DNA of 64,000 bases from an endosymbiont of Escarpia spicata (GTDB taxonomy: Bacteria; Pseudomonadota; Gammaproteobacteria; Chromatiales; Chromatiaceae). How positions within the stretch are numbered: position 1 is the first letter of the stretch; the number at the start of each line of letters is the position of its first letter. This document shows, piece by piece, positions 81 to 5,771 of this stretch. The notes beneath the pieces were generated by a model. The model saw only the letters and a program-made list of their open reading frames with translations. It was not told the DNA's origin and did not search any database. Made by a program: the position numbers and the translations under genes. Location of the stretch: positions 1 to 64,000 of the forward strand of contig QFXE01000013.1 of the NCBI GenBank assembly GCA_003349915.1, read 5' to 3'.

Positions 81-1877
81 ATGCGAAAAGTATCTGTATT
101 GTGTATGTATCTTCTGATTGTCTCGGCTGCCACCGTGGGGGACGTGGCAACTACCGTGCATAACCTGTCGTCCTCGGGACCGGGGACAGGGGCGTTTAAG
201 AGCCTGACTGAAGATCGGATCTGTATTTTCTGCCATACGCCCCACGCGGCCACGCCCGATACGCCTTTATGGAACAGGCTCTCCACCGGAGCTTATACCC
301 CTTATCAAAGCAGCACCACGGATGCAGCTGCAGGAAATATGAGTTCTTCTTCAGATTTATGCCTATCCTGTCATGATGGCACCATAGCTTTGGGTGACCT
401 GGTCAACCCTGGGACTGGAGTTACCAACGACCTGAGCACCACATTTCTGACCGGTCGGGCTCTCATCGGCTCCGACCTATCCAACGACCACCCTGTCGCA
501 ATCGTCTACGACCCAAATTTACTGGCCACCGACCCGGATCTGCTCTCCCCTGCCGTCGTGGATCTTCCACTAACAAATGGAGAGCTTCACTGCTCTTCCT
601 GCCACGATCCACACAAGGACACATATCCGCCCTTTCTTCGCAAGCCGACGCTTAATGGTGAACTATGCATCACCTGTCACATACCAACGGGGGCGACTTG
701 GGATTGGACAACCAGCTCCCATGCCACATCCGTCGCCTCACCGCCCCTGGGGACCGATCCCTGGCCCGAACGCAAACCGGCTTGGGTGGGCCAGAATGTA
801 AGTGAGAACGCCTGTATGAATTGCCATACGCCACACAACGCGGCTACGCCGGTGAGACTCATCAAGGATCAGGAGGAACAAACCTGTTACCTGTGCCACG
901 ATGGCACCGTGGCACAGGATATTCTCGCAGAAGAACTGAAATTTTCTCACCATCCGGTTGAGGTGACGCCCAATCTGGATCACGATTCCGTTCGAGCAGA
1001 GAACCCTCTTACCATGCAGCTCCACGTCGAGTGCGAAGATTGCCACAACCCACATGGCAGTTATAGTTCTCCACCAATGATCTCCTTCAATCCCGCCAAC
1101 CCAGCGGGTACAAACCACACGACGGCGCCATTCGTCAACGGCAGCATGGTGGGTGTGACAGGAATTGACAGCGGCGGAGCGGTGAAGCCAGAGGTGGATT
1201 ACGAATACGAGGTTTGCTTCAAGTGCCACGGTGTACCCGGAAAGAGTGCCTGCGACAACCAGCGCTGCTCAACTGCAACTGGTTACAACATGACCCGTCA
1301 GGACGGTGTTTACAACTTACGCGACAAGGTTGATTCCGGCAATCCGGCACTGGTTTCTTACCACCCTATCACAGCCAACAACCCTTTCAATAACGGCGAA
1401 GTCCCCAGTCTACGCGCTGACATCCCCCTGGATACGACCAGCAGCCTAATCTACTGTAGCGATTGTCATAGCAGCAATGTTTCGCCCGCCGCTGGCGGAG
1501 TGGGAACAGCAGGTTCCCATGGCTCCACGTACGAAGGCATTATGGCGCTGCCTTATGATTTTGATCCACAAACCGCCACTTCCGCAAACAACCTCTGCTA
1601 CAAATGCCACAATGCCGCCAGCCTAGAGGTCTCTTTCATACACAGCAAACACGTGGGTGCAAACACTACCTGCATCAACTGCCACGATCCCCATGGCTCA
1701 GCGAAGTTTCCCCACCTACTCAATTTCCTGACTTTTGCCAATGTCACAGGACCCATGGAGATCACCGGAACCGGTGCCTTTACTGAACCAACCTGGATAG
1801 ACAACGGACAGTACAGTGGCACTTGCCATTTAGTCTGCCATGGAAAAACACATGATGCATGGTCATACCCCCCCTGA
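81..1877 (+). CDS. Multihaem c-type cytochrome, doubled CXXCH family
   Basis: A secreted electron-transfer protein of about 598 residues. After a short hydrophobic N-terminus the chain carries eleven CXXCH haem-binding motifs (CIFCH, CLSCH, CSSCH, CITCH, CMNCH, CYLCH, CEDCH, CFKCH, CSDCH, CYKCH, CINCH). A twelfth candidate near the C-terminus is spaced CX3CH (CHLVCH). Many motifs are followed by TPH, DPH or NPH, the pattern of the doubled-CXXCH cytochromes, where the extra His is often an axial ligand. An in-frame GTG lies 9 bases upstream at 72, but the ATG at 81 gives the better signal peptide start. Family membership is secure; the electron partner is unknown. It may shuttle electrons in the periplasm or at the surface. 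Confidence 0.85.
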   Translation: MRKVSVLCMYLLIVSAATVGDVATTVHNLSSSGPGTGAFKSLTEDRICIFCHTPHAATPDTPLWNRLSTGAYTPYQSSTTDAAAGNMSSSSDLCLSCHDGTIALGDLVNPGTGVTNDLSTTFLTGRALIGSDLSNDHPVAIVYDPNLLATDPDLLSPAVVDLPLTNGELHCSSCHDPHKDTYPPFLRKPTLNGELCITCHIPTGATWDWTTSSHATSVASPPLGTDPWPERKPAWVGQNVSENACMNCHTPHNAATPVRLIKDQEEQTCYLCHDGTVAQDILAEELKFSHHPVEVTPNLDHDSVRAENPLTMQLHVECEDCHNPHGSYSSPPMISFNPANPAGTNHTTAPFVNGSMVGVTGIDSGGAVKPEVDYEYEVCFKCHGVPGKSACDNQRCSTATGYNMTRQDGVYNLRDKVDSGNPALVSYHPITANNPFNNGEVPSLRADIPLDTTSSLIYCSDCHSSNVSPAAGGVGTAGSHGSTYEGIMALPYDFDPQTATSANNLCYKCHNAASLEVSFIHSKHVGANTTCINCHDPHGSAKFPHLLNFLTFANVTGPMEITGTGAFTEPTWIDNGQYSGTCHLVCHGKTHDAWSYPP

Positions 1878-3088: not shown

Positions 3089-3349
3089 ACTTATTGATTC
3101 GCAGCCAGTCTGTTGAATATTATAGGCAAAAAGGCCACATACACTCTTAAATCTTTTTGTCTCAACGAGTGCAGCTCGTCAAACTGCATGCAGCATTTAA
3201 CCGCTGGGATAATAGCTATTCTATTAGCAGAAACCCTATAAAACAGGGTAATTCATATGTCTCATTGACTCTTAAGACCTACCCAGTGTTAGACGCATAA
3301 TCGATGACCTGCGAAATCACCGCGATGCAATAAACTCAATCCCCAACCC

Positions 3350-3391
3350 AACTACTTACTTTATATTAGCGGCTAACTACTTACTTTATAT
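3350..3391. repeat. 17-bp direct repeat upstream of the dihaem gene
   Basis: The sequence AACTACTTACTTTATAT occurs at 3350-3366 and again at 3375-3391, a 25-base period or about 2.4 helical turns. It ends about 50 bases before the start of the dihaem cytochrome/phosphatase-like gene, so it could be a regulator site or a small duplication in the promoter. Confidence 0.6.
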
Positions 3392-3440
3392 AAGTGATTT
3401 AAAAGGCTACCATCAACAACTCCATTACGGGGGGCAATCT

Positions 3441-4583
3441 ATGAAAAATCTCATCCAAATGTTGGTAGTACTGTCTCTACTTCTAATAATAACTCCTGAG
3501 GTATTAGCCGATCTTCCACCCGCCTTTGAGGGGAGAAAGTTATATGTTTCTCACTGTCAGTTATGTCACGCTGTCGATGGTAAGGGAGATGGCCCTCTCG
3601 CAAAAGCGATGCAGATCGAGGCGGATGATCTAACTACCATAGTACGCTCTGGAAGTGACAACACCCTCATAAACATCATCACCGGAAAGGGTCGACATGC
3701 ATCCACCCATCGCATCAGCCCCAGCATGCCAAAGTGGGAAGATGTATTCAGTGAGCATCAGATCAAAGCAGTGGTTGCATATCTACGCTTTCTCAGTAGT
3801 TCCAAACACGATCTGATAGGGGACCCTGAGATTGGCCTGCGACTCTACCAGAAATATTGCGCAATCTGTCACGGTGCTGAAGGCGACGGGAAGGGTGTCA
3901 TGACGGAACTCTTGCGAATCAAGCCGATTGATCACACCAATCCGTACAAGACTGACAAGCTTGACAATAATGAACTCGCATCAAGCATTCTGGATGGAAG
4001 AGGAAAATTCATGCCCGCTTTTCGCGGCATTCTCAACCAAGGCGAGGTTGATGGACTGGTCAGTTACATACGACTGCTTTACCAAATATGGGGACAGTTA
4101 GAGGATGGAGGGTTGGTTATTTTGATGAGACAGCCCACTGCGAAAATGGACGAAGAATACGGTAACTCCCTGCTTCGTGATCCATCATGTAAAAGCAAGG
4201 AGAATCTATCTGAAAAAGGTAAAATGAAGGCCGTCAGCATAGGAGAGCAATTTAAATCCAGAGGCGTACCAATAGGTAGTGTATTGGCAAGCCCTGATTG
4301 CCTCGCTAAAGAGACTGCAAAAACTGCATTTGGCCAAGTTGAACCAGTGGATTTTTTATCTTCAATGAAAACGCTTCCCGAACAACAGGCAGATTCGTAC
4401 ACCACACAATTAGAGCGCCGAATAGGATCATATTCAGGCAAGGGGAATCTTGTTTTGGTAACGCACGAATTAAATATCAATGCCATATCTTTTCAAACTT
4501 TAGAGGAAGGATACTTTCTCGTACTGAATCCCATGGGTAAAAACGAGTTTGAAGAAATTGGAATATATAGGTTGGATAAATAG
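3441..4583 (+). CDS. Dihaem cytochrome c fused to a degenerate histidine-phosphatase-like domain
   Basis: A 380-residue exported protein. A signal peptide (1-23) is followed by two class I cytochrome domains (about 27-118 and 127-215) with motifs CQLCH and CAICH and Met ligands in SPSMPKWE and GKFMPAFRG. From about residue 224 the C-terminus follows the histidine phosphatase superfamily: LVILMRQPTA where LxxxRHGxT/RHA is expected, NLSEKGKMKA, VLASPDCLAKETA, and a second-half LVLVTHELNI. The phosphate-accepting His of RHG/RHA is Gln here, and Arg residues usual in the 'QRNLS' and 'SxxxRxxxTA' positions are absent, so catalysis is doubtful. GGGGGG about 6 bases ahead of the ATG supports the start. 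Confidence 0.75.
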   Translation: MKNLIQMLVVLSLLLIITPEVLADLPPAFEGRKLYVSHCQLCHAVDGKGDGPLAKAMQIEADDLTTIVRSGSDNTLINIITGKGRHASTHRISPSMPKWEDVFSEHQIKAVVAYLRFLSSSKHDLIGDPEIGLRLYQKYCAICHGAEGDGKGVMTELLRIKPIDHTNPYKTDKLDNNELASSILDGRGKFMPAFRGILNQGEVDGLVSYIRLLYQIWGQLEDGGLVILMRQPTAKMDEEYGNSLLRDPSCKSKENLSEKGKMKAVSIGEQFKSRGVPIGSVLASPDCLAKETAKTAFGQVEPVDFLSSMKTLPEQQADSYTTQLERRIGSYSGKGNLVLVTHELNINAISFQTLEEGYFLVLNPMGKNEFEEIGIYRLDK

Positions 4584-4766
4584 TTCTGACGCCTGTAGAA
4601 AAAGCCTTTTAGTGGAGTTGAAGCAGTAAACTGATACGTCTTAGGGTCGGCGAAAAAATAACCCTCTGCTTTCAATTGAGCCTGAACTCGCAGTTCCACT
4701 TGGGGAGGTCGTCATCTCTAGTGATGGCAATCGCCCGAACCAGATTGAGTGGGTTCCGGTCCGGTA

Positions 4767-5771
4767 TCATATACGGGGGGCAGCCACACTATCGAGTAGA
4801 TCAGCGAGCACATCATCGGGCGAATAGCCTTCGATCTCCAGGTCGGTGGTCAGCCTGATTCTGTGCCGCAACACTGCGGTCGCTGCAGCCTTGACATCAT
4901 CCGGGGTGACAAAGGTACGGGATTGCAAAAAGGCCTCGGCCCTCGCCGCGCGCAGCAAGGAGATGCTGCCTCGTGGCCCTGGCCCCGCTTCAATACCACT
5001 CCATTCACGGGCGGAGCGTACGATACGCACCGCATAGTTGAGAATCTGCTCATCCATCTCCAGTGTTGCCACATGCTCTTGCAGCGGCAGAATCTCTTTC
5101 GCCTTTAACTGTTGGCGCACCGCCGAGGTGTCGAGTTGATCACCCACGGAGCCGACGGTTACCTGCTGCACCATCTGCTGCTCCTCCTCTTCTCCTGGAT
5201 AGTCGATGAAGACCTTGAGCAAGAAACGGTCGAGTTGGGCCTGGGGCAGCGGATAGGTCCCCTCCTGTTCGATGGGGTTCTGGGTAGCGAGCACCAGAAA
5301 GGGACGAGTTAGATTAAAGGTCCTTCCCTCGATAGTCACCTGTTGTTCCTGCATTGCCTCCAGCAGCGCCGACTGGGTCTTGGCCGGTGCCCGGTTGATC
5401 TCGTCCGCCAGCAGGAAGTTGCAGAATACCGGTCCACGGCGAACCCGAAACTCCTCCGATTTCATATCGAACATTATGTGGCCGGAGATGTCGCTGGGCA
5501 TCAGATCGGGGGTGAACTGCACCCGGTTGAACAGGCCACCGACCGCTGCAGCCAGACTGCGCACCAGCAGCGTTTTGCCGAGACCCGGCACCCCCTCCAC
5601 CAGCACATGACCTGCGGCAAACAGGGCAATCACCACCTCGTGAATCACCCGGTCCTGCCCGACCACTGCCCGCCTGATCTCTGCTTCCAGTCCTCTGGCA
5701 CGGCTCATCAGCTCTGCTGCAATGCCGCTTCCATCCGTTTGTTGTGAATCCATCATAAATTCAGTTTCCAT
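4767..5771 (-). CDS. MoxR-family AAA+ ATPase
   Basis: MoxR ATPases act as chaperones that assemble or activate partner complexes, often together with VWA-domain proteins. The 334 residues show Walker A (GVPGLGKT), Walker B (FLLADEINRAP), the MoxR signature GRTFNLTRPFLVLATQNPIEQEGTYPLPQAQLDRF (positions about 172-206) and the C-terminal helical lid. This is the last recognisable gene of a minus-strand operon with DUF4350, DUF4129, SpoIIM-like and RDD genes. A repeat at 5778-5851 separates it from the DUF4350 gene. The start could also be the Met codons at 5756 or 5753; no strong ribosome site decides. A DUF58 gene usually follows but is missing. Confidence 0.9.
   Translation of the reverse strand: METEFMMDSQQTDGSGIAAELMSRARGLEAEIRRAVVGQDRVIHEVVIALFAAGHVLVEGVPGLGKTLLVRSLAAAVGGLFNRVQFTPDLMPSDISGHIMFDMKSEEFRVRRGPVFCNFLLADEINRAPAKTQSALLEAMQEQQVTIEGRTFNLTRPFLVLATQNPIEQEGTYPLPQAQLDRFLLKVFIDYPGEEEEQQMVQQVTVGSVGDQLDTSAVRQQLKAKEILPLQEHVATLEMDEQILNYAVRIVRSAREWSGIEAGPGPRGSISLLRAARAEAFLQSRTFVTPDDVKAAATAVLRHRIRLTTDLEIEGYSPDDVLADLLDSVAAPRI

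Follow-up and report, generated by a model that had tools for sequence, protein, structure and literature searches.

The window, by which we mean the whole 64,000-nucleotide stretch of DNA analysed here, encodes a secreted dihaem c-type cytochrome fused to a C-terminal histidine-phosphatase (HP) domain. The nucleophile histidine and a pocket arginine of this domain have been replaced in every copy of the fusion that we found, most of the domain is under purifying selection, and the gene lies at the end of a cluster of multihaem cytochrome genes. These domains, motif losses, selection patterns and gene neighbourhoods were observed directly. From them we infer a periplasmic location, a loss of activity, a partner and a docking role: the protein would be a periplasmic dihaem carrier for a conduit resembling the undecahaem electron transfer (Uet) system, with the dead HP fold serving as a docking or assembly module. 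We give this explanation a probability of about one half.

Structure of the fusion protein

The fusion gene (ORF 3441-4583, + strand) encodes 380 aa, comprising a signal peptide, two c-type haem domains and the HP domain. The features discussed below are the following.

81..1877 (+): undecahaem cytochrome gene (11 CXXCH, with a doubled CXXCH), UetJ-like, upstream of the fusion gene
3441..3509 (+): signal peptide, aa 1-23, from the translation; predicted cleavage after VLA, no lipobox seen
3513..4082 (+): dihaem cytochrome region, aa 25-214, from Pfam and NCBIfam
3555..3569 (+): haem-binding motif CQLCH, aa 39-43; Cys, Cys and His invariant in eight aligned fusions
3858..3872 (+): haem-binding motif CAICH, aa 140-144; Cys, Cys and His invariant in eight aligned fusions
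4077..4091 (+): linker-free junction, VSYIRLL straight into YQIW, from comparison with dihaem-only relatives and lone HPs
4086..4580 (+): pseudo histidine-phosphatase domain, aa 216-380 (165 aa), from NCBIfam, alignment and profile
4125..4172 (+): former RH nucleophile loop, aa 229-244, with Gln231 for His, hypervariable, from alignment, omega and codon windows
4302..4304 (+): Leu288 for the pocket Arg (CLAKE, nine of nine fusions), from alignment and the yeast phosphoglycerate mutase profile match
4464..4466 (+): retained second His, His342 (THE), from alignment

The N-terminal part matched Pfam Cytochrome_CBB3 (3.4e-24) and Cytochrom_C (2.6e-18). With two CXXCH motifs inside Pfam cytochrome c domains and a signal peptide, it is a secreted c-type dihaem cytochrome, and its nearest solved structures are the CcoP subunits of cbb3 oxidase (1.2e-10). 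It shares the two Cytochrome_CBB3/Cytochrom_C haem domains and the signal peptide with periplasmic dihaem shuttles and CcoP-like cytochromes. Unlike them, it is fused to a C-terminal HP domain, and no transmembrane helix besides the signal was seen in the fusion protein. A direct repeat, aactacttactttatat occurring twice, is located immediately 5′ of the gene, at about 3345-3410 of the window.

The C-terminal domain was matched below threshold by Pfam His_Phos_1 (PF00300, E 0.084) and by the NCBIfam models PRK06193 (NF004842, 6.9e-18 over aa 217-375), PmrG (6e-4) and SixA (2e-3). It fell under every curated cut-off, the NF004842 score being 64.8 bits against a cut-off of 325. It aligned with intact lone relatives, reaching 45% identity to L028. 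When the domain sequence alone was compared with PDB using phmmer, no matches were recovered; a profile of eight HP rows matched yeast phosphoglycerate mutase (3pgm, 3.9e-6). Since the profile reached this structure, we consider the sequence-based assignment of the C-terminal 165 aa to a real histidine-phosphatase fold to be safe. The initial annotation had read the gene as a dihaem cytochrome joined to an HP-like domain, and the Pfam cytochrome domains, the PRK06193 match and the L028 alignment bear this out. An AlphaFold2 model made from five close sequences had a mean pLDDT of 36.9 and was discarded.

Distribution of the fusion

The full fusion was found in nine of 146 family genomes, six from the window's genus (its own genome included) and three from a second genus. 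Four of the nine appear to be tubeworm-symbiont assemblies, from Escarpia laminata, Lamellibrachia anaximandri (two isolates) and L. barhami. Chance or mis-assembly was ruled out as the source of the fusion, as nine genomes carry it. One copy, in G020, is cut: it stops near the contig edge and the rest is on another contig.

In wider samples the HP profile matched 33 of 369 class genomes and 57 of 398 phylum genomes. Among the matches listed, which were judged by frame length, these samples yielded lone domains besides the genomes already counted, and the fusion was not found outside the two genera. The long-frame matches that we examined (L156-L162, L184, L185) had no CXXCH in the frame, and no CXXCH gene was seen in nine lone-phosphatase contexts (L100-L108). 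Among the papers returned by our literature searches, none described a cytochrome-histidine phosphatase fusion, as judged by title or abstract opening.

Loss of active-site residues

The nucleophile His was absent from all nine fusions, its place being taken by Gln in the window protein (Gln231, MRQPT), by Pro in five and by Ser in three. The initial annotation had noted Gln at the catalytic position of the window protein, and the loss extends to every fusion found. An intact His elsewhere was looked for and was not found at an equivalent place; in L018 a His stands one place later (RPHT), off the motif position. The Arg preceding the lost His was retained in eight of nine fusions and was Lys in one. 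The pocket Arg was Leu in all nine (CR to CL), within a CLAKE motif identical throughout, and in the profile match Leu288 occupies the column of Arg59 of yeast phosphoglycerate mutase, which we take to be catalytic. The second His was retained in all eight readable fusions, the ninth being cut by its contig; in the window protein it is His342, in the second-half THE that had been pointed out. Two conserved arginines had also been described as changed. The change at Leu288 concerns the active site; the other, QRN to KEN, falls at a position without conservation in L028 and L030, the nearest intact relatives, and this part of the description did not hold.

The fusions resemble PRK06193/SixA/PmrG-type branch 1 phosphatases in the whole-domain profile, the second catalytic His, the apparent signal peptides and two conserved Cys (C250 and C287 in the fusion). 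They differ in having lost the RH nucleophile and the pocket Arg, and in the attached dihaem cytochrome. Compared with the features of an active branch 1 phosphatase, the window protein lacks RH(G/A) and the Arg of SxxCRxxxTA and possesses the second His.

We examined 36 lone HP loci, one of which failed to align. In the remaining 35 the pocket Arg and the second His were always present, and the nucleophile pair was RH in 31, RN in three and SH in one. RH was also found in all 18 further loci from the phylum search with a printed domain start (L165-L182). Since RH is kept in most lone relatives, the fused clade stands clearly apart and does not follow a habit of the family. The single SH locus, L049, is a lone HP that retained the pocket Arg and the second His. 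The three RN loci (L037, L053 and L061, from three families) are free-standing HPs that also have NH for TH. As they clustered into one group (100/97), they seem to represent a separate line that was inactivated independently.

Selection on the HP domain

Pairwise omega in the window's genus (six genomes giving 15 pairs that are not independent, with one of the genes partial) was 0.13 and 0.11 for the two haem domains, 0.19 for aa 245-379 of the HP domain and about 1.8 for the loop at aa 229-244. In the second genus, omega for the loop was 0.98 between G007 and G096 (four changes) and 0.30 over all three genomes; for the whole HP domain it was 0.15 and 0.13, respectively, and for the haem domains it ranged between 0.10 and 0.23. 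When the mature protein was scanned in the window's genus, 16-codon windows starting at aa 227-231 contained 18 amino-acid changes, the maximum of 340 overlapping windows (mean 4.1). Six residues of the former RH loop were deleted in L015.

The combination of a variable RH loop and a constrained remainder leads us to conclude from the sequences that the HP domain is a maintained pseudo-phosphatase, in which activity would have been lost. The view of the initial annotation, that a pseudo-enzyme is tethered to a periplasmic electron carrier, is supported by the loss of the His in all nine fusions together with the purifying selection on the domain. Because the loop was freed while the scaffold was kept, the old pocket is unlikely to bind phosphate, and a role for another face of the domain would be favoured.

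Junction and origin of the fusion

Dihaem-only relatives end in VSYIRLLSH or similar, and lone phosphatases start with xLLW or similar after the signal peptide. The fusions read VSYIRLL-YQ(I/V)W. As no linker is present, the dihaem and HP parts are expected to be held rigidly. In the HP tree, which included eight of the nine fused domains (the cut copy was left out), these formed one clade (100/99) adjoining the intact lone L028 and L030 of the same family (joint group 99/94). In the dihaem tree the fused rows were not one clade in the best tree, and forcing them together gave p-AU 0.10. Since the dihaem part did not group as one, the case for a single fusion event is made by the HP tree and the identical junction. 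Fusion genomes also contain dihaem-only paralogues that have no HP domain. The dihaem-only L002, L078-L082 and L022-L024 nested beside or inside the fused dihaem rows, and some of them may have shed the HP domain.

The predicted conduit gene cluster

An undecahaem cytochrome gene lay just 5′ of the fusion gene, on the same strand, in all nine fusion genomes, with a gap of about 0.08-1.6 kb. The fusion gene forms the end of a cluster containing undecahaem, tetrahaem and trihaem cytochromes, a putative beta-barrel and NHL propellers. Upstream of the undecahaem gene, in L090-L093, L134, L163, L010 and L011 as far as each stretch extends, we read genes for an NHL propeller, a 671-aa putative barrel, c7 trihaem cytochromes, a tetrahaem cytochrome and a second NHL protein. 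G063 has a collinear run of seven genes that begins with the tetrahaem and ends with the fusion gene, the final gap measuring 71 nt. The window's contig begins inside the cluster, and contig C16 of the same genome ends with a matching NHL gene in a fitting orientation. Between the undecahaem and fusion genes of the window there is a convergent gene for an acidic monohaem cytochrome of 112 aa (2456-2794, - strand), which was also found in L090 of the same genus and was absent from three second-genus stretches.

Amphipathic strands were over-represented in the 671-aa protein (z 4.3-4.6 in two copies, against -0.7 to 0.8 in three controls), which is regarded as a putative beta-barrel on account of this strand periodicity and its position. 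It had a strong match in eight of nine fusion genomes and one weak match (20%) among the 137 other family genomes. In G099 (contig C22, 108161-110442; L116, L118) the barrel matches were in two pieces, unlike in the other fusion genomes, which would reflect a frameshift, an insertion or an assembly fault.

The Uet conduit, found in Tenderiales and some Gallionella, is composed of undecahaem UetJ, tetrahaem UetA, trihaem UetDEG, NHL proteins UetHI and barrel UetC (PMC10734462), and the undecahaem cytochrome of Ca. Tenderia electrophaga has been considered a possible route of extracellular electron transfer (PMC5371394). By this published composition the present cluster is like Uet, with an undecahaem protein with a doubled CXXCH, tetrahaem and c7 trihaem cytochromes, NHL proteins and a putative barrel occurring together. 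L134 and L163 have the Uet-type composition and represent a predicted conduit, known from its genes. Unlike the published account of Uet, there are two trihaem genes here and not three, and the dihaem-HP gene is added; no peptidyl-prolyl isomerase (UetB) was recognised by eye in L134 or L163. PCC3 and Cyc2-like genes have been reported from tubeworm symbionts, in passages that do not mention the present cluster (PMC5566968). Our literature search gave no paper joining Endoriftia with extracellular electron transfer.

Possible functions

Under the carrier and docking explanation, a secreted lone phosphatase, probably active, would have been added at the end of a dihaem cytochrome. After fusion, the nucleophile loop would have been released from constraint, and the HP domain, its catalysis lost, would have been retained as a rigid module for docking or assembly. 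The dihaem carrier would then exchange electrons with a porin-cytochrome conduit of undecahaem, putative barrel, trihaem, tetrahaem and NHL proteins. Alternatively, the protein may serve some other periplasmic electron path and its neighbourhood may be incidental. The 1.3-1.6 kb separation in the window's genus counts against the conduit, as do the convergent gene inserted in the window and L090 and the proximity to CcoP among solved structures. However, the fusion adjoins the undecahaem gene in nine of nine cases and was not found in family genomes without this type of cluster, and we regard an incidental neighbourhood as unlikely. The HP domain could also be a passenger of an accidental fusion, kept solely because its fold stabilises the cytochrome. 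The linker-free junction would fit this, and the dihaem-only paralogues in the same genomes indicate that a dihaem protein as such can do without the HP domain. But purifying selection on the domain is near the level of the haem domains, new residues have been fixed (CLAKE in all nine), and the domain is present only in the copy adjoining the conduit genes, which makes a mere passenger improbable.

Two further explanations retain a role for the old active site. The initial annotation had suggested phosphate or phospho-ligand sensing, in which the dead domain would bind a phosphorylated envelope molecule and hold the carrier near the outer membrane or report the ligand to the redox chain. Flea acid-phosphatase-like proteins belong to another branch of the phosphatase fold. 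Those of flea saliva are catalytically dead and bind small ligands (PMC10728186), and as described there they resemble the fusion in having a phosphatase fold that is kept for another job without its catalytic residues, although they are eukaryotic, salivary and without a cytochrome. A sensor would also agree with kinship to PmrG (6e-4; 4.5e-7 for L019), a phosphatase of LPS core heptose-phosphate, and with retention of the RH-pair Arg and the second His. Every fusion has nevertheless lost two of the four canonical pocket residues, and the nucleophile loop is the most variable 16-codon window of the mature protein. Since a ligand pocket is not expected to evolve with a hypervariable loop, the suggestion was not supported, and we attach a low probability to it. 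The same retained Arg and His could point to an enzyme that is still active through another nucleophile or another chemistry. This is very improbable, given that no single residue took the place of the His (Q, P or S occur there) and that all nine fusions have Leu for the pocket Arg.

If the docking explanation is true, the protein would illustrate in detail how an enzyme can become a docking component of a redox chain, with the steps readable in the sequence: an intact free relative, the fusion, a released active-site loop and a preserved scaffold. An undecahaem-type outer-membrane conduit would then stand beside the PCC3 and Cyc2 published for tubeworm symbionts (PMC5566968), and the periplasmic partner of undecahaem-type conduits would become testable.

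Related clusters lacking the fusion

The undecahaem gene had matches in 20 of 146 genomes. The nine fusion genomes matched at 67-100% identity; G136 (second genus) and G126 had nearly full-length matches at 42-45% without the fusion, and nine further matches were part-length. The co-occurrence of fusion and conduit comes from two genera and does not represent many independent events. In ten clusters of the wider kind (L136-L143, L164 and L183), some of them cut by contig ends, the fusion was not found. Six of these (L136, L137, L138, L141, L164 and L183) contained a 7-haem gene, and five of the six an 8-haem gene too. A close homologue of the 7-haem protein was absent from the nine fusion genomes, where the best match among long frames was about 34%. 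The 7-haem proteins of G126 and G136 were 71% identical, and the 8-haem proteins 34%, over part of their length. Because the 8-haem protein is poorly conserved even between these two genomes, replacement of a multihaem partner by the fusion protein is only suggestive. A more specific model, in which the enzyme fold was recruited as a rigid adaptor that clamps the carrier onto the undecahaem cytochrome and takes the place of the multihaem carriers, is tentative, and we consider it less likely than not. Near the undecahaem cluster of L140 there is a phosphoglycerate-mutase-like gene with an intact RHG (4135-4830, - strand), which is probably a housekeeping gene placed there by coincidence.
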